NCBI GenBank assembly: GCA_026709935.1 | Contig: JAPOSC010000065.1 | Span: 62,001 to 126,000, forward strand | DNA length: 64,000 nt | Direction: 5' to 3' | Source: Thiotrichales bacterium | GTDB taxonomy: Bacteria; Pseudomonadota; Gammaproteobacteria; HK1 | Shown: one piece after another, positions 7,863 to 61,131 of the stretch | How positions within the stretch are numbered: the first letter of the stretch is position 1 | How the letters are laid out: the number at the start of each line of letters is the position of its first letter | Program-made: the position numbers and the translations under genes | The notes under the pieces: model-generated | What the model saw: only the letters and a program-made list of their open reading frames with translations | Told to the model about the DNA's origin: nothing | Database searches by the model: none

Positions 7863-9461
7863 ATGCCGGCCGCGTCCGCTTCCATCGAGCAACGCATCTC
7901 CACGCTCGAAGCCCATCTGGAACAGGAGAACCCCCTGCTCCTCGACGCCGTGAAGAGCTTTCGCGAGCTCGACAAGGTGGCGTATCGGCTCGGAGTCCTT
8001 GCGCCCGAGGAATCGTTCACCACGCAGGTGCCGTGGTGGCCGATGGTCGCGGTGCTCGGGACCTTCTCGTCGGGGAAGTCGTCGTTCATCAACCACTTTC
8101 TGCAGGCTCGGCTCCAGTCGACCGGGAACCAAGCCGTCGACGATCGATTCACCGTCATCTGCTTCGGAGCCGACGAAACGCCCCGAACCCTGCCCGGCCT
8201 TGCCCTTGACGCCGATCCGCGCTTCCCGTTCTACCAGGTCAGCCGGGACATCGAGAGCGTGGCCGCCGGCGAAGGGAGCCGCATCGATGCCTATCTCCAG
8301 TTGCGCACGTGCCGGAGCGAAGCGCTGCGCGGCAGGATTTTCATCGACTCGCCGGGATTCGATGCCGATGCGCAGCGCACCGCGACGTTGCGCATCACCG
8401 ACCACATCGTCGATCTCTCCGACCTCGTGCTGGTGTTCTTCGATGCCCGGCATCCCGAGCCGGGCGCGATGCAGGACACGCTGAGTCACCTGGTGGGAAA
8501 CACCATCCACCGGTCCGATTCGAGCAAGTTCCTCTACATACTCAACCAGATCGACAACGCGGCGCGTGAGGACAACCCCGAGGATGTCTTCGCGGCCTGG
8601 CAACGCGCGCTTGCCCAGGTCGGTCTCACCGCGGGCCGGTTCTACTGCATCTACAACCCGGATGCCGCCATGCCGATCGAGGATCCGGAGCTGCGCCGCC
8701 GCTTCGAGACCAAGCGGGCGGAGGACGTCACCGAGATCTACGAGCGCATCCATCAGGTCGAGGTCGAACGCGCCTACCGAATCGTCGGCGTGCTGGAGAA
8801 GACGGCGAAGGCGATCGAGCAGCGCGTAGTGCCGGCGGCGACCGCGGCGAAGGCGTCATGGAAGCGTGGGGTGCTGTGGCTCGATGGCGCAATCTTCGGC
8901 ACGCTGGCCCTCCTGCTCGCGGTGTGGACCATCTCGGCGGGGTACTGGACCGGCCTGCGGTTCTCCGCTCCGTGGTTCGACGCCATCGCCTCGACGCCGT
9001 GGCTGACGTTGCCGGTGGTGGTCCTGGTGGCGGCAGGCGCCGGATACCTCCACTTCCTCGTGCGTCGCCTCTCGGCGCGGTTCATCGCCCGCCGCATCGC
9101 GCAAGACCCGGAGCTCGACGGCGTACGGACATGGGTGTCACGCGTGTTCGTCCGCAACACGAAGGCGTGGCGGTCCGTCGCCACCGCGGCTCCGGTCGGC
9201 TGGGGTCGCGGCGCCCGCCGGCGAATCGCGCGGGTGGCTGCGGACGCGGATCGGCTCGTGCAGGGTCTCAACGATCGCTTCGCCGACCCTTCGGGCGGGG
9301 TGAAGGCGATCGGAGGATCGGAAGAAGACTCCATCGCGGCACCGGAAGCACTTCCGGCGGTGGCGAGTGACCTGGTTACGGCGGGTGATGACTCGGCCGA
9401 TCCGCTGCCGGTGACCACCCCGCCCTCCGGCATCGATGATGAGCGAGGGCCGCGGGTCTGA
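7863..9461 (+). CDS. Dynamin/EHD-like GTPase with C-terminal transmembrane hairpin
   Basis: P-loop GTFSSGKSSFIN; DRFTVICFG; IDSPGFDADAQR; LNQIDN; two hydrophobic segments (GTLALLLAVWTISAGYW, WLTLPVVVLVAAGAGYLHFL). Confidence 0.8.
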   Translation: MPAASASIEQRISTLEAHLEQENPLLLDAVKSFRELDKVAYRLGVLAPEESFTTQVPWWPMVAVLGTFSSGKSSFINHFLQARLQSTGNQAVDDRFTVICFGADETPRTLPGLALDADPRFPFYQVSRDIESVAAGEGSRIDAYLQLRTCRSEALRGRIFIDSPGFDADAQRTATLRITDHIVDLSDLVLVFFDARHPEPGAMQDTLSHLVGNTIHRSDSSKFLYILNQIDNAAREDNPEDVFAAWQRALAQVGLTAGRFYCIYNPDAAMPIEDPELRRRFETKRAEDVTEIYERIHQVEVERAYRIVGVLEKTAKAIEQRVVPAATAAKASWKRGVLWLDGAIFGTLALLLAVWTISAGYWTGLRFSAPWFDAIASTPWLTLPVVVLVAAGAGYLHFLVRRLSARFIARRIAQDPELDGVRTWVSRVFVRNTKAWRSVATAAPVGWGRGARRRIARVAADADRLVQGLNDRFADPSGGVKAIGGSEEDSIAAPEALPAVASDLVTAGDDSADPLPVTTPPSGIDDERGPRV

Positions 9462-21663: not shown

Positions 21664-22692
21664 ATGGAGCCCCTCGTGCAGCCAGTCGATCTGAGAAGCG
21701 ACACCGTCACCCGTCCCACACCGGCCATGCGCGCCGCGATGGCGGAAGCGGAGGTGGGTGACGACGTCTTCGGGGAGGACCCGACCGTCAACCGGTTGGA
21801 GGCCATGTCGGCGGAGCGGTTCGGCCACGAAGCCGCGCTCCTGGTCGCGAGCGGCACCCAGGGCAACCTCCTCGCGCTGCTCACCCACTGCGGCCGCGGC
21901 GACGAGTACATCTGCGGTCAACGCGCCCACAACTACCGCACCGAAGGCGGGGGCGCGGCCGCGCTCGGGGGCATCCAGCCCCAGCCGGTGGAGGTCGAGG
22001 CGGACGGCACTCTCGATCTCGATCGGGTCGCCGCCGCCATCAAGCCGGACGACTTCCACTACGCCCGCACCCGCCTGCTGAGTCTGGAGAACACCATTTC
22101 GGGCCGGGTGCTGCCGCTCGACTACATGCGCGCGGCGCGCGCCCTGTGTGACCGTCACGGCCTCGCCCTGCACCTCGATGGGGCGCGGGTGTTCAACGCC
22201 GCGGTGGCCCTCGGGGTGGAGCCGGTCGAGATCATGTCGCTGTTCGACAGCGTGTCGATCTGCCTCTCCAAGGGGCTCGGCTGCCCCGCCGGCACCGTGC
22301 TGGTCGGCGCGCGGGATTTCATCGCCGAGGCGAGACGATGGCGCAAGGTGGTGGGCGGCGGCATGCGTCAGGTCGGGTTCATCGCGGCGGCCGGAATCCA
22401 CGCCCTCGACCACCACGTCGAGCGGCTCGAAGCGGACCACGCCAACGCCCGGCGGCTGGCCGATGGCCTCGCCCACGTCGACGGCATCGACGTCGATCAC
22501 AACGCGGTCCGGACCAACATGGTGTTCGCGAAAGTGGCGCCGGACCGGGTCGAGGACTTCGTCTCCCACTGCGAGCAGCACCAGGTGCTCATCCGGCCCA
22601 TCAATCCGAACCGCCTGGTGACCCATCTCGACATCGACGCCGACGGGATCGACCACGCCGTCGGCGTGATGCGGAAATTCTTCGACGCCTGA
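21664..22692 (+). CDS. ltaE: Low-specificity L-threonine aldolase
   Basis: DLRSDTVTRPTPAMRAAMAEAEVGDDVFGEDPTVNRLE; SKGLGCPAGTVLVG. Confidence 0.94.
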   Translation: MEPLVQPVDLRSDTVTRPTPAMRAAMAEAEVGDDVFGEDPTVNRLEAMSAERFGHEAALLVASGTQGNLLALLTHCGRGDEYICGQRAHNYRTEGGGAAALGGIQPQPVEVEADGTLDLDRVAAAIKPDDFHYARTRLLSLENTISGRVLPLDYMRAARALCDRHGLALHLDGARVFNAAVALGVEPVEIMSLFDSVSICLSKGLGCPAGTVLVGARDFIAEARRWRKVVGGGMRQVGFIAAAGIHALDHHVERLEADHANARRLADGLAHVDGIDVDHNAVRTNMVFAKVAPDRVEDFVSHCEQHQVLIRPINPNRLVTHLDIDADGIDHAVGVMRKFFDA

Positions 22693-31998: not shown

Positions 31999-33672
31999 TC
32001 AGAACAACCCCTCGATCCGGCCTGCCGCGTTGATGTGTATGCCCTCGGCGGCGGGCTTCTTCGGCAGACCGGGCATCGTCATCATGTCGCCGCAGATCGC
32101 GACCACGAACTCCGCGCCGGCCGACAGTCGCAGTTCGCGGACAGGCACCTCGTGTCCCTCGGGGGCGCCCTTGCGCGACGCATCGGTCGAGAAGCTGTAC
32201 TGGGTCTTCGCCATGCACACCGGGAAGTGGCCATACCCGCCGTCCTGAAGCGCCCGGAACCGGTTGCGCACCGCCGCCGAGGCGGTGATGCCGGAAGCGC
32301 CATAGATCCGCTTCGCCACCGTCTCGACCTTGTCCCACAGCGGCATCTCGTCGGGATACAGGGGCTTGAACGCGCCCTCCCCCGCTTCGACCATCTCCAC
32401 CACGTGGCGCGCGAGCGCCTCCGTGCCGGCGCCGCCGTTCGCCCAGTGAGCGCAGACGATGGCCCGCGCGCCCTGCTGGCTCGCGACATCCACCACCGCC
32501 TGGAGTTCGGCTTCGGTGTCGGCCGAGAACTGGTTGACCGCGACCACGACCGGGACGCCGAACTGCTTGAGGTTCGCAAGATGCCGGGCGAGGTTCGAGC
32601 ACCCCGCCTTCACCGCGTCGACGTTCTCGTGCGCGAGATCCGCGAGCGCCACCCCGCCGTGCATCTTCAGCGCCCGCAGCGTCGCCACCAGCACCACCGC
32701 GTCGGGGGCGATGCCCGCCTTGCGACACTTGATGTCGAAGAACTTCTCGGCCCCGAGGTCCGCCCCGAACCCGGCTTCGGTGACCACGTAGTCCGCGAGC
32801 TTGAGCGACGCGCGGGTCGCGATGACCGAGTTGCACCCGTGGGCGATGTTCGCGAACGGACCCCCGTGGATGATGGCGGGGTTGTTCTCCAGGGTCTGCA
32901 CCAGATTGGGGGCGAGTGCGTCCTTGAGCAGCACCGTCATCGCGCCGTCGGCCTTCAGATCGCGCGCCGTCACGGGCTCGCGCGAGCGCGTCTGCCCGAC
33001 TACGATGTTGCCGAGGCGGCGTTGCAGATCGCTGAGGTCGGAGGCGAGACAGAAGATGGCCATCACCTCGGAGGCGACGGTGATGTCGAAGCCGTCGCTA
33101 CGCGGGAAGCCATTGCCGATGCCGCCGAGCGAACACACGATCTCGCGCAGCGCCCGGTCGTTCATGTCGACGACCCGCCTCCAGGAAATCCGCCGGGCGT
33201 CCAGGCCAAGGGCGTTCCCCTGGTGGATGTGGTTGTCGACCAACGCGGCGAGCAGGTTGTTCGCGGCGCCGATGGCGTGGAAATCGCCCGTGAAGTGCAG
33301 GTTGATGTCCTCCATCGGCACCACCTGCGCGTAGCCGCCGCCGGCAGCGCCGCCCTTCACCCCGAAGCAGGGTCCGAGACTCGGCTCACGCAGGCAGACC
33401 AGCGTCTCTCGGCCGATGCGGTTCAGGCCGTCGGCGAGCCCCACCGAGGTGGTGGTCTTGCCTTCGCCGGCCGGGGTTGGCGTGATCGCGGTGACCAGCA
33501 CCAGCTTCCCGTCCTTCTTCTCCGAGAGCGAGTCGATGTAGCCGAGATCGATTTTCGCCTTCGTGTGCCCATAGGGCAGCAACGCCTCCGGAGGAATTCC
33601 CAGCCGGCCTCCGATGTCCGCGATCGGTTTCTGCGTCGCTTCCCGGGCAATCTCGATGTCGCTCTTGGCCAA
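31999..33672 (-). CDS. fhs: Formate-tetrahydrofolate ligase (TTG start proposed)
   Basis: [46 protein letters not shown]; 557 aa from TTG. Confidence 0.95.
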
Positions 33673-37716: not shown

Positions 37717-38004
37717 TCACACGCCCTCGACCACGACCATGCGGGTGGTGGTGGACGCCTCGCGCAGGGCCCGGGCCGGGGCGTAGAGGTCGGAATCGTG
37801 CCATGCCTTCGCCCGCGCCGCGTCGTCGAATTCGATGATCACGAGCCGCTTCGGGTGCCATCCACCCTCCCGGCCCTCGATGGCCCCGCCCCGCACCACG
37901 TAGCGACCTCCGAACGCCTCGATCGTCGGGGGGACGAGTCTGCGGTACTCCTCGAATGTCTCGGAGTCGCTGACCTCGATTTCAGCGATGACGTATGCGC
38001 TCAT
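37717..38004 (-). CDS. DUF1330 domain protein
   Basis: MSAYVIAEIEVSDSETFEEYRRLVPPTIEAFGGRYVVRGGAIEGREGGWHPKRLVIIEFDD. Confidence 0.9.
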   Translation of the reverse strand: MSAYVIAEIEVSDSETFEEYRRLVPPTIEAFGGRYVVRGGAIEGREGGWHPKRLVIIEFDDAARAKAWHDSDLYAPARALREASTTTRMVVVEGV

Positions 38005-38630
38005 GCCGCACTCTCCCCGTTTCGCGCTCCGGCGTCATGGATGCGGAAGTGTGCTTCCGTCGGCCGCCCCGCTTTCCCGTTGATGGGCAGGATGTCCTGA
38101 GGACAGGCGGAGAACGCCACCACCGCGTCGAGCTGCGCTTCGAGCGTGATGGAGTCGCCGGGCCGAGTGACGGGTGGGTCGAACGAGAGCGCCCCTCCAC
38201 TCTGCCAGGGGATGTTCATGAACAGATTGAGGGGGCTCGGCGTTTCCGGCGGTGTGAGCCCCAGGCCGTGCATGGCGGCCCACAGGTTGTCGGTGCAGTT
38301 GTCGTGGTACTCGGTGCAGCCGAGCAGACCGTAGCGATAATTGTCGCAGGCGGCCATGAGGGTGTCGTGGATACCGGGGGAGGTGTCTTCCACGATTTTC
38401 AGGATCGGGCGACGGCGCGTCGTGTACAGGTAGTCGCCGACTGTCGGCATGATCTTGACGAGCGTTGCCCGGGTGTGCTCCATCGACATGAATTCCCGCA
38501 GGTCGTGGCGCACGAACGCCCAGGTATCGACGACCTGCTCGCCGTGGGTGTTGACGACGGTCACGTACTGCCCCCTTTGCACGAAAGCAGCGGCTCCCCG
38601 GCGCGCCGGTATGGTTCCAATCTCTTCCAT
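38001..38630 (-). CDS. DUF1989 (urea carboxylase-associated) family protein
   Basis: FVQRGQYVTVVNTHGEQVVDTWAFV...RPILKIVEDTSPGIHDTLMAACDNYRYGLLG...HDNCTDNL; ALSFDPPVTRPGDSITL. Confidence 0.88.
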   Translation of the reverse strand: MEEIGTIPARRGAAAFVQRGQYVTVVNTHGEQVVDTWAFVRHDLREFMSMEHTRATLVKIMPTVGDYLYTTRRRPILKIVEDTSPGIHDTLMAACDNYRYGLLGCTEYHDNCTDNLWAAMHGLGLTPPETPSPLNLFMNIPWQSGGALSFDPPVTRPGDSITLEAQLDAVVAFSACPQDILPINGKAGRPTEAHFRIHDAGARNGESAA

Positions 38631-56925: not shown

Positions 56926-58224
56926 ATGAACCCCGCCGTCGACTACGGACGGCCGTTCCCGGCCCGACCGCGGCCACTGACACTGGAACAGGCGGCCCAA
57001 GTCACGCCGCCGGCGCAGGCCGTCGATACCGAGGGGACGATCGACGTGCCGCGCATGCGCGCGTACCGGCAGCACCGGTTGCGCGAGCAGATCGAGGCTC
57101 AGGGCTTCGATGCCCTGATCCTGGTGGAACCACTCTCGATCCGCTATGCGACCGGGGTGCGCAACTGCGCCCTCTTCCAGATGCACATCCAGGCGGGATA
57201 TCTGTTCGTCCCGGCCGACGGTCCGGTGGTCTACTTCGACAGCAGCCCGGGCCGCGAGACCGGGGCGGAACTCGAAACCATCGACGAGATACGCGACGAC
57301 CTGCTGCCGCTGTCCCGCATGTTCGCCGGTGATCGCCAGCCGGAATGGGCCGATAAGTGGGCGGCCCAGATGGCCGACCTGATACATCGACACTGCGGGT
57401 CTGCGGCGACGGTCGGGCTGGAGCGGGCGGGCGCCAGTGCCCAGCAGGCCCTGGAACGCGAGGGCTTCCGCGTCGTCGATGCGGCCCCCGCGCTCGCGCA
57501 CGCCCGCAAGCTCAAGTCCCCGGAGGAGATCCTGGCCATGAACCTGGTCCAGGCGGTGGCCGAGGACGGGATGACCCGCATGCGCGAACACTTGCGCAGC
57601 GGCGTGAGCGAGCAGGCGCTGTGGGCGCACATGTGGATGGCGCTGATCGAGGGCGGCGGCGAGTGGATCGACTACCGGCTGATGGCCTCGGGCGAGCGCA
57701 CCAATCCCTGGCAGCAGGAAGCCTCTTCGCGCACCGTCCGCGCCGGCGACCTGGTGGTCTTCGACTGCGGGATGGTGGGTCCGTTCAGCTACGGTGCCGA
57801 CGTCTCGCGGGCCTGGCACTGCGGTCCCGGAAAGCCCTCGGACTACCAGAGGAAGCTCTACACCCTGGCGTGGAACGAGGTGATGCACAACACCGAACTC
57901 ATGCAGCCGGGCGCAAGCTTCCGCGAGATCGTCGAGCGCCGCTACATCCAGAAGCAGGGCTTCGGCGACCAGCCCTATCCGTGCCTGGCGCACGGGCTCG
58001 GAATGGCCGACGAGTGGCCGGTGATCTACTACCCGGTGGACGCGAAGTTCGACTACGACGGAACCCTTGAGCCGGGCATGGTGATGTGCGTTGAAAGCTA
58101 TGTGGGGGAAGTCGGCGGCCGGGAGGGAGTAAAGCTTGAGAATCAGTGTCTGGTGACCGAGACCGGCCCTGTCGTGCTGTCACGGTATCCGTTCGAGGAC
58201 GAGCTGCTGAGCCGGGAGATCTGA
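56926..58224 (+). CDS. M24-fold (creatinase/Xaa-Pro peptidase superfamily) protein resembling DddP
   Basis: GGEWIDYRLMASGERTNPWQQEASSRTVRAGDLVVFDCGMVGPFSYGADVSRAW...CLAHGLGMADEWPVIYYP...LEPGMVMCVESYVGEVGGREGVKLENQ. Confidence 0.85.
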   Translation: MNPAVDYGRPFPARPRPLTLEQAAQVTPPAQAVDTEGTIDVPRMRAYRQHRLREQIEAQGFDALILVEPLSIRYATGVRNCALFQMHIQAGYLFVPADGPVVYFDSSPGRETGAELETIDEIRDDLLPLSRMFAGDRQPEWADKWAAQMADLIHRHCGSAATVGLERAGASAQQALEREGFRVVDAAPALAHARKLKSPEEILAMNLVQAVAEDGMTRMREHLRSGVSEQALWAHMWMALIEGGGEWIDYRLMASGERTNPWQQEASSRTVRAGDLVVFDCGMVGPFSYGADVSRAWHCGPGKPSDYQRKLYTLAWNEVMHNTELMQPGASFREIVERRYIQKQGFGDQPYPCLAHGLGMADEWPVIYYPVDAKFDYDGTLEPGMVMCVESYVGEVGGREGVKLENQCLVTETGPVVLSRYPFEDELLSREI

Positions 58225-58464: not shown

Positions 58465-61131
58465 TCACCGCGCGTAACGCATTCGCGTGAACCGCTGGCG
58501 GAACCGGATCACCTCCTCGCGCCGCGCCCCCGGATCTGCCGAGTCCGCGGAGTCCGGTTCGCGCAGGATGCTTGCCATGAGCTCCGCGAGTGCCCCGAAG
58601 TCCGCCTCGTTCATGCCGAAGCGGGTCATCTCCTGAGTGCCGAGGCGGATGCCCGAGGCGGCGGCGAAGCTGGCATCGTCGTAAAACGCCTGCGGATTGG
58701 TAATGATGTTGTTCTGCTCGAGCCGCGAGGCCATTTCTCCGCCCGACCCTGGCGCACCGCGCACGAGGACCTGATGGGTGTCGGTGTAGCCGTTGTCCGC
58801 ATCGCCCTCGATCGCGAGTCCACGCTCCGCGAGAGCGACGGCGAAGGCCCTGGCGTTGCGGATGACCTGCGGCTGGTACTCGTCGCGATAGCGGATCATC
58901 TCGTAGGTCGCTCCGAGCAGACCGAGCAGGGTTCCGAGGTGATGGTTGCTGACATGGCCGGGAAACGTCCGCGACCGCACGAACCGCCAGAACTCCTCGA
59001 AGGCGTGGCCGGGCACGATGTTGCTCAGGATCACGCCCCGCTGAGGGCCGAAGAACGTCTTGTGTGTCGAGCCGGTGACCAGATCGGCCCCCTCGGCCAG
59101 CGGATCCTGAAAGTACTCTCCCAGCAGGCCAAGGACATGAGCGCCGTCGTACATCACGAGCGGCCGCTCGGGGTTGTCGACGCCGAACTCGGAGTGGACG
59201 AACTCGACGATCTCCCTCACCGGCTCGGGGTGGATGATCACGCTGCGCCCGAAGACGATGAGGTCCGGCCGGCCTTCGGCGATGAGGGCCATGGTCGCCT
59301 CGGCGTCGATCGCGTGGGGGAGGTCCGCTCTCGGCACGAAGCGGTCCACCGCGGGCGCCTCGGTCCTGGGGTCGTGGGCGATGTAGTTCTTCAGCGCTCC
59401 GCCCACCTGCGCGCTCAGGTGGCCGCCCTTGTTGAGATCGTGGACGAGTAACCGTCGCAGCGGCTGGGGCGTGCGGCGGCCGCGGTGCCGGTTGCGGAAC
59501 TGCTTCAGCGCGTCGTAGACGGTGTCGTTGGCCATCTGTCCGCTGATGACCCGCACCTCGGCGTCCTCGCAGCCGAACAGGGTGCGCAGCGCTGCAACCA
59601 GCTCCTCTTCCTTTTCCATGCTGAAGGCGGTGCCCTTGTAGTACCGCACGTCCTCGGAATTCACCCCGAGGGCCCGGAGGTGGTTGTGCTCGTTGTAGCG
59701 CCCCGCCGGATCGGTCGCGCACAGGCGCTCCACGAACTCTGACACGCAGTTCTCGGAGGGAATGAGGTTGATGCACTCGGTGCGCCGCCAGCGATGGTTG
59801 CGTTCCGCCTGCGCCGCGAGATCCGCCGCCAGCGCCTCGACCTGCGCTGGCACTGTGCGTCCCCGTTCGGCGGGGGGTTCGAAGCCGCGGAACGGCCGCA
59901 CGAATGGCGCAACCGGCCACGTGTTGCGCTCCACGATCTCGGCGGTCATGGCATTGCCCCGGCCGTCGAGTACCTCGACGTGGAGCGGTTCGTCACTGCG
60001 CGGCAAGAGATCCGAACGCAGTAGTGCAAGCCCGATCGGACGCAGCATGTGGTCGCGGCCGGGTGTCGCCGAGATCCCTTCGCCCTCGAATACGGGGTAC
60101 GGCACGGTTGTGCCCGACGTGATCCATCCCGCGTCCTCGCCCCGCCAGGTCACCCGGTAGCCCTGGCGCAACGGCCGGCGGCCGCCGAAGACCGCGACCG
60201 GCTGCACCAGATGCGTCAGGCGCCGCCCGGCCGCCGGGGTGTCGAGCTCCCGCCTGCGAATCAGCTCGTATTCTTCACGCTGCGCCCTCAACGCCGCGCC
60301 CCCGACGAAGTCGCACTCCTCGTCGGTCCGTACCGCGAACCGTGCCAGCGAGTTCGCAAACAGCGGAATATCACCACCGTCGGGGCCCGGACCAAGCTCG
60401 TGCCCGTACAGCGGCAACCCCGCTTCCAGGCGCAGCGAGTCCCGCGCTCCGAGCCCGACCGGAGTGGCGCCGGCCTCGACGAGCCGCTCCCACAGCCGCG
60501 CCGCCACGACGCTCTCCGGAAAAAGCTCGAAGCAGACGGTCTCACCCGTATAGCCGGTTCTCGCGACGGTCAGCGGGCGACCCTCGAAGTCGACAATCGA
60601 GATCCGGTTGCGCTTGTTCTCCGGCAGCGTTCGAGGATCGATCAGGCGCGAGAGCGCGTCTTCGGCGCTCGGACCCTGAAGCGAGATCATCGCGAGTTCC
60701 GCGCTCTCGTCGACCAGACGCAAGCCGCTATCGGGAAGATGTCGTTCGAGCCAGTCCCGGTCCGCAGCACGATTTCCGGCATTGACCACGAGCAGGAAGT
60801 CGTCGCGACCGAGCCGATAGAGGTAGGCGTCGTCGATACACCCGCCGGTCTCGTTCGCGATGAACGTGTACTGCGCCTGCAGAGGGTCGAGACCGGACGC
60901 GTTGTTGGTGAGGGTTCGCAGCAGAAACGCCTCGGCCTGCGCCCCTGTCACCCGGTAGCGCCCCATGTGGCTCACGTCGAACAGACCGGCGCTCCGGCGG
61001 GTCGCGAGATGCTCGGCGATGATTCCTGTCCGGTACTGCACCGGCATGCTCCAGCCGGCGAAGTCCACCATCTTCCCACCGTGGTCCGCGTGCCAGTCGT
61101 GCAGGACGGTCCTGCTCAGTGGCTCATTCAT
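58465..61131 (-). CDS. Fusion: aminomethyltransferase (GcvT) - serine hydroxymethyltransferase (divergent SHMT), 888 aa
   Basis: N-term LHDWHADHGGKMVDFAGWSMPVQYRTGIIAEHLATRRSAGLFDVSHMGR (GcvT); C-term LIPSENCVSEFVE, YDGAHVLGLL, VTGSTHKTFFGPQRG (SHMT PLP-Lys); no stop between. Confidence 0.92.
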   Translation of the reverse strand: MNEPLSRTVLHDWHADHGGKMVDFAGWSMPVQYRTGIIAEHLATRRSAGLFDVSHMGRYRVTGAQAEAFLLRTLTNNASGLDPLQAQYTFIANETGGCIDDAYLYRLGRDDFLLVVNAGNRAADRDWLERHLPDSGLRLVDESAELAMISLQGPSAEDALSRLIDPRTLPENKRNRISIVDFEGRPLTVARTGYTGETVCFELFPESVVAARLWERLVEAGATPVGLGARDSLRLEAGLPLYGHELGPGPDGGDIPLFANSLARFAVRTDEECDFVGGAALRAQREEYELIRRRELDTPAAGRRLTHLVQPVAVFGGRRPLRQGYRVTWRGEDAGWITSGTTVPYPVFEGEGISATPGRDHMLRPIGLALLRSDLLPRSDEPLHVEVLDGRGNAMTAEIVERNTWPVAPFVRPFRGFEPPAERGRTVPAQVEALAADLAAQAERNHRWRRTECINLIPSENCVSEFVERLCATDPAGRYNEHNHLRALGVNSEDVRYYKGTAFSMEKEEELVAALRTLFGCEDAEVRVISGQMANDTVYDALKQFRNRHRGRRTPQPLRRLLVHDLNKGGHLSAQVGGALKNYIAHDPRTEAPAVDRFVPRADLPHAIDAEATMALIAEGRPDLIVFGRSVIIHPEPVREIVEFVHSEFGVDNPERPLVMYDGAHVLGLLGEYFQDPLAEGADLVTGSTHKTFFGPQRGVILSNIVPGHAFEEFWRFVRSRTFPGHVSNHHLGTLLGLLGATYEMIRYRDEYQPQVIRNARAFAVALAERGLAIEGDADNGYTDTHQVLVRGAPGSGGEMASRLEQNNIITNPQAFYDDASFAAASGIRLGTQEMTRFGMNEADFGALAELMASILREPDSADSADPGARREEVIRFRQRFTRMRYAR

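Follow-up and report, generated by a model that had tools for sequence, protein, structure and literature searches.

The T-protein of the glycine cleavage system (GcvT) and serine hydroxymethyltransferase (SHMT) are well-studied enzymes of C1 metabolism, which are normally separate proteins; a metabolic coupling of the two via methylene-THF has long been assumed. Natural fusions of a GcvT domain with a C1-producing enzyme are known among the FAD oxidoreductases (dimethylglycine oxidase, sarcosine oxidase alpha and TMAO demethylase). In these enzymes the GcvT domain is placed C-terminal to the oxidase, without the Asn of GcvT type, and methylene-THF is made but not used. The protein described here is likewise a natural fusion of this general kind, in which the GcvT domain comes first and is followed by a divergent SHMT.

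The window, that is, the whole stretch of DNA that was analysed, comprises 64,000 nucleotides of contig JAPOSC010000065.1 from a Thiotrichales bacterium. A sequence-only reading had pointed there to a single 888-residue frame joining GcvT to SHMT, and this claim holds: the frame at 58465-61131 has an ATG start and zero internal stops. It lies on the minus strand, which had not been stated, and a plus-strand reading of the same interval is ruled out by stops. The gene, its parts and its main catalytic positions are the following:

58465..61131, minus strand: fused gcvT-SHMT gene, 888 codons plus stop (ORF translation, Pfam, NCBIfam)
59926..61131, minus strand: GcvT half, residues 1-402, with the GCV_T folate-binding domain (10-247) and a degenerate C-terminal barrel region
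59812..59925, minus strand: linker, approximately residues 403-440, of variable sequence (dN/dS and inspection for internal starts)
58468..59811, minus strand: SHMT half, residues ~441-888, of a divergent clade on the M. jannaschii SHMT side (Pfam and tree)
60829..60831, minus strand: Asp101, equivalent to D98 of E. coli GcvT and invariant across fused proteins and canonical GcvTs (alignment)
60781..60783, minus strand: Asn117, equivalent to N114 of E. coli GcvT (alignment)
59689..59691, minus strand: Glu481, equivalent to the catalytic E57 of E. coli GlyA (alignment)
59059..59061, minus strand: Lys691, in THKT, equivalent to the Schiff-base K229 of E. coli GlyA (alignment)

Both halves are recognised by Pfam, GCV_T at residues 10-247 (E 1.7e-79) and SHMT at residues 444-851 (E 2.7e-28; 99.2 bits vs a gathering score of 27), values at which a chance match is excluded. 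The GcvT domain seen in the first reading is confirmed by this match and by the NCBIfam gcvT equivalog TIGR00528, whose cut-off is passed (244.5 vs 235.85 bits), and the motifs quoted at that time are found in the protein. The barrel region, degenerate in the window protein, is recognised as GCV_T_C in a homologue from Desulfobacterota (L125). The closest solved structures are 1yx2, a GcvT, for the N-terminal half and 4bhd/4uqv for the C-terminal half, the latter being an SHMT of Methanocaldococcus jannaschii type. Neither Pfam nor NCBIfam detects an FAD oxidoreductase domain at the N-terminus of the window protein, where the domain is GcvT. An AlphaFold model of the fusion, built from six input sequences, was too poor for the arrangement of the domains to be read (mean pLDDT 52.6, pTM 0.40).

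The fusion is not confined to this genome. Full-length copies are present in 9 of the 17 genomes of the window's gammaproteobacterial family (62-82% identity), including the single-contig assemblies G004 and G005, and in one genome of a second family (G071), 369 genomes having been sampled evenly from the class. In Desulfobacterota, a full-length fusion with 46% identity is found in Desulfobacteraceae bacterium RAAP-1, and the same SHMT clade, counted at E < 1e-150, appears in 35 of the 395 genomes sampled. It sits in open frames of ~880 residues or longer in 31 of these 35; two more fusions run off the end of their contig, G460 has a stand-alone gene, and in the last genome (G702) the gene starts at a contig edge, which leaves its fused or stand-alone state unreadable. 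At least 33 of the 395 genomes thus carry the fused form, which recurs in many genomes of sulfate-reducer type. In the candidate division Hyd24-12 phylum the clade is present in 37 of 42 genomes, as a stand-alone protein of ~480 residues wherever it is complete. The idea that assembly or annotation artificially joined two genes can be practically dismissed, given the identical join in independent genomes of two phyla. The two findings that would have overturned the sequence-only reading do not materialise, since an assembly join fails before the single-contig genomes G004 and G005 and no relative has separate overlapping genes. The natural fusion of GcvT and SHMT is real, and its conservation in two phyla is joined as support by the conserved active sites and the gene content presented below.

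Residues were mapped on E. coli GlyA and E. coli GcvT in an alignment of 38 fused proteins. All 38 keep the SHMT residues S35, Y55, E57, Y65, H126, D200, H203, H228, K229 and R363 (GlyA numbering), which in the window protein include K691 (Schiff base), E481 (Glu57), H571 (the PLP-ring His126), D662 (Asp200) and R829 (the carboxylate Arg363). The Schiff-base motif THKT had been correctly picked out from the letters, its Lys being K691; the active-site Glu had been wrongly located in SENCVSEF, which aligns next to S35 of GlyA, and the equivalent of the catalytic Glu57 is found in RYNEH, at E481. As for the GcvT half, the equivalents of D98, N114, Y189, E192 and E196 (E. coli GcvT numbering) are invariant in the aligned fused proteins, and all GcvTs and fused proteins have Asn at the position of N114, whereas the FAD-oxidoreductase GcvT domains used for comparison all lack it. 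The GcvT half resembles described GcvTs (TIGR00528; structures 1yx2, 3a8i and 1woo) in the whole length of the domain, in its catalytic residues and in its score above the gcvT cut-off, whereas it differs from stand-alone GcvTs in being only ~40% identical to them, in forming a clade of its own and in having an SHMT attached at its C-terminus.

The dN/dS values of 0.11-0.19 for the GcvT half, 0.055-0.155 for the SHMT half and 0.28-0.63 for the linker indicate that purifying selection is acting on both halves and less so on the linker. We also considered that a separate SHMT might be produced from an internal start. An ATG with a Shine-Dalgarno-like stretch occurs in the linker of just 2 of the 38 fused genes and no plausible internal start is found in the window sequence, and internal translation is thus rejected as a general mechanism.

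The SHMT half deserves closer attention. In the SHMT tree (like the GcvT tree below, a quick tree in which support is SH-aLRT alone), the fused proteins of Gammaproteobacteria and Desulfobacterota fall together with the stand-alone proteins in one clade (100), on the M. jannaschii side and far from GlyA; the distinct clade that had been proposed from the divergent look of this half is thus recovered, on a long branch from GlyA. With SHMT/GlyA (PF00464, NF000586) and with the M. jannaschii SHMT (4bhd/4uqv) it has in common the fold-family match and all the core PLP and catalytic residues. It differs from GlyA in its low identity (27-31%), in a score under the NCBI SHMT cut-off, in the Gln that replaces Asn347, in extra insertions and in the fused GcvT. 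The stand-alone SHMTs of the clade, in Hyd24-12 (L030, 30+ genomes) and in one genome of Desulfobacterota (L217), are ~50% identical to it and show the same diagnostic residues, differing in that they are unfused and ~480 residues long. Across the whole divergent clade the folate-contacting N347 of GlyA and S99 are both replaced by Gln, and R372 is replaced by Phe or Tyr; in view of the two Gln replacements, the folate or phosphate contacts of the clade may differ from those of GlyA.

These replacements (N347Q, S99Q, R372F/Y), together with the very long branch from GlyA and the missed NCBI cut-off, could be taken to mean that the C-terminal half is in practice not an SHMT, acting instead on another beta-hydroxy amino acid as an aldolase or transaldolase. 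We regard this as very improbable, as the core catalytic residues are all present, among them E57, needed for THF-dependent cleavage, the closest solved relative is the M. jannaschii SHMT, and the fluorothreonine transaldolase model gives 113-159 bits vs a cut-off of 650. The fusion is, moreover, the sole SHMT-family gene in 20 of the 31 Desulfobacterota carriers, a count given without regard to genome completeness, and this also speaks against such a role; the same holds as an observation for the gammaproteobacterial carriers G002, G003 and G071. The SHMT half is, by these comparisons, a divergent SHMT-family member that is not filed as GlyA.

In the GcvT tree the GcvT halves of all fused proteins group together with support of 100, consistent with a single fusion event. 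Nested among the gammaproteobacterial fused GcvTs (99) are the stand-alone GcvTs of genus g6 (L017-L019, 57-59% identical), a position from which the SHMT half was most likely lost in that genus. In all three g6 proteins (L017, L018 and L019) the otherwise invariant Glu236 is Gln. The patchy occurrence of the fusion in Gammaproteobacteria, as opposed to its wide occurrence in Desulfobacterota, suggests that horizontal transfer, of unproven direction, lies behind its spread.

The gene content of the carriers relates the fusion to the glycine cleavage system. As the sequence-only reading had said, GcvH and GcvP are not encoded in the window; both are adjacent on another contig of the same genome (C41), as gcvH-gcvP with no gcvT alongside. 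A search for other copies in this genome found a separate canonical glyA on contig C34. In the window's genus, the remaining GcvT-domain proteins are nearly all frames of 800-1150 residues of the FAD-oxidoreductase type. The 31 Desulfobacterota carriers have essentially no second protein above the gcvT cut-off, the few second GcvT matches sitting in frames of 769-841 residues. A separate ordinary gcvT is retained in G001, G006 and G071, beside gcvH and gcvP in the first two, and several carriers retain a separate glyA.

In Desulfobacterota the fusion, like GcvT, is a genomic partner of gcvH and gcvP. Among the 35 genomes with the SHMT clade, 33 have gcvP. Ten of these 33 have it within 20 kb of the fusion on a shared contig (0.6-1.3 kb in four), against ~1% expected if it were placed at random in a genome of 4 Mb. 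The fusion adjoins gcvH, gcvP, lpd, lipA or lipB in several carriers: L125 belongs to a cluster in one orientation, gcvPB-lipB-lpd-lipA-(patatin-like)-UPF0047-fusion, L136 shows the order fusion-gcvH-lipA-oxidoreductase, and L143 has a divergent cluster gcvH-gcvPA-gcvPB-lipB. A UPF0047 protein recurs upstream of the fusion in such gcv/lip clusters (L125, at 8717-9133, L126, L134, L140 and L141).

Two carriers of the window's family, G007 and G013, both ~94% complete, have no detected gcvH or gcvP, which reflects either assembly gaps or a fusion that also works without the glycine cleavage system. In addition, the window's genome (G000) encodes ~10 large GcvT-domain proteins of the dimethylglycine/sarcosine oxidase type (L002-L008, for example), an unusually expanded set suggesting that methylated glycines are heavily used. 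Both observations would fit a different role in the gammaproteobacterial symbiont-type genomes, in which the GcvT half would act outside glycine cleavage, for instance by demethylating dimethylglycine, sarcosine or a related methylamine in a THF-dependent manner, with serine then made by the SHMT half from the product glycine and the C1 unit. Such a role seems unlikely to us: the residues of the GcvT half are those of canonical GcvTs rather than those of the FAD enzymes, no oxidase domain accompanies it, the fusion adjoins gcv/lip genes in Desulfobacterota, and the five genomes of the window's own genus keep gcvH and gcvP.

The reading that we favor is that the fusion combines an aminomethyltransferase and a serine hydroxymethyltransferase in one polypeptide, with a probability of roughly 0.8. 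The N-terminal half would be the T-protein of the glycine cleavage system (in reverse, glycine synthase), transferring the aminomethyl group on lipoylated GcvH to THF to give 5,10-methylene-THF and ammonia, and the C-terminal half would be a PLP-dependent SHMT interconverting serine plus THF and methylene-THF plus glycine. With GcvP, GcvH and Lpd as partners, the fusion could convert two glycines into serine, CO2 and NH3, or operate in reverse, for the synthesis of glycine from methylene-THF or the breakdown of serine, the shared cofactor being made and consumed on one molecule. We infer both activities, the direction of the flux and a local hand-over of methylene-THF. Counting against this reading are the absence of detected gcvH and gcvP from G007 and G013, the separate gcvT or glyA that some carriers retain, and the replaced GlyA positions N347 and R372. 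The link through methylene-THF proposed earlier stands in its two-glycine form, two glycines to serine and back being the best reading, while nothing points to the methylated glycine that had been offered as an alternative substrate.

A rationale for joining the two enzymes is provided by the lability of methylene-THF and its release of formaldehyde in the glycine cleavage reaction, as one report describes (PMC7227101). True channelling of methylene-THF in the fusion is nevertheless a tentative proposal, somewhat doubtful in our judgement. Still bolder, and unlikely when taken as a whole, is the view that direct channelling from T-protein to SHMT would shield the labile C1 carrier, that the fusion would form the glycine-serine segment in a sizeable fraction of Desulfobacterota and that its SHMT clade would have replaced GlyA. 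A variable linker does not by itself give any argument for channelling, and the linker (dN/dS 0.28-0.63) carries no hint of a conserved interface. These features speak for a bifunctional protein without channelling, in which the fusion would do no more than keep the two activities at 1:1 while methylene-THF is free to diffuse, a reading that falls a little short of even odds. Two further points favor free diffusion: SHMT normally forms dimers or tetramers with surfaces of their own, and genus g6 has kept its GcvT half despite losing the SHMT half. Retention across two phyla suggests a benefit beyond chance, which weighs against this reading, although stoichiometry could be that benefit. Under the bifunctional reading that we favor, a natural fusion found in two phyla offers a direct way to test the hand-over of methylene-THF, and those who engineer the reductive glycine pathway gain a component that already exists in nature.

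Such a protein seems easy to overlook. The NCBIfam SHMT model NF000586 (cut-off 335) is missed by the window protein at 237.8 bits and by 14 other fused proteins at 213-265 bits, and all 15 pass the gcvT cut-off, so that an automatic pipeline would presumably give a name to just the GcvT half, and genomes with the fusion as their sole SHMT would appear to have none. The stand-alone SHMTs of the clade (L030, L099-L123 and L217) are below the NCBI SHMT cut-off in the two of two tested, and are likely missed as well. Work from 2026 on the evolution of the reductive glycine pathway of Desulfobacterota discarded any sequence that differed from the queries in domain structure (PMC12827605), a filter that should drop fusion proteins, and its main text does not mention a GcvT-SHMT fusion; nor does PMC7547702. 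We found no description of a GcvT-SHMT or gcvT-glyA fusion in the open literature that was searched, although a domain-architecture database may list it. Each half belongs to a known family and the architecture is the new part, as far as the open literature shows.

Some other genes of the window touch on the same metabolism. A formate--tetrahydrofolate ligase (FTHFS; 31999-33672, minus strand; 918 bits to NF010030), a C1-folate enzyme, lies ~25 kb from the fusion, and a low-specificity L-threonine aldolase or GntG-family PLP aldolase, another glycine-forming enzyme, is encoded at 21739-22692 on the plus strand. A stand-alone protein at 38001-38630 (minus strand) resembles the urea-amidolyase-associated UAAP2, and also residues 169-365 of trimethylamine N-oxide demethylase, in both cases below cut-off. 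Converging on the fusion is an M24-family protein (56926-58224, plus strand), which scores 292 bits with the model for the DMSP lyase DddP; as this is well under the cut-off of 600, it is probably a peptidase homologue that resembles DddP and has a different function.
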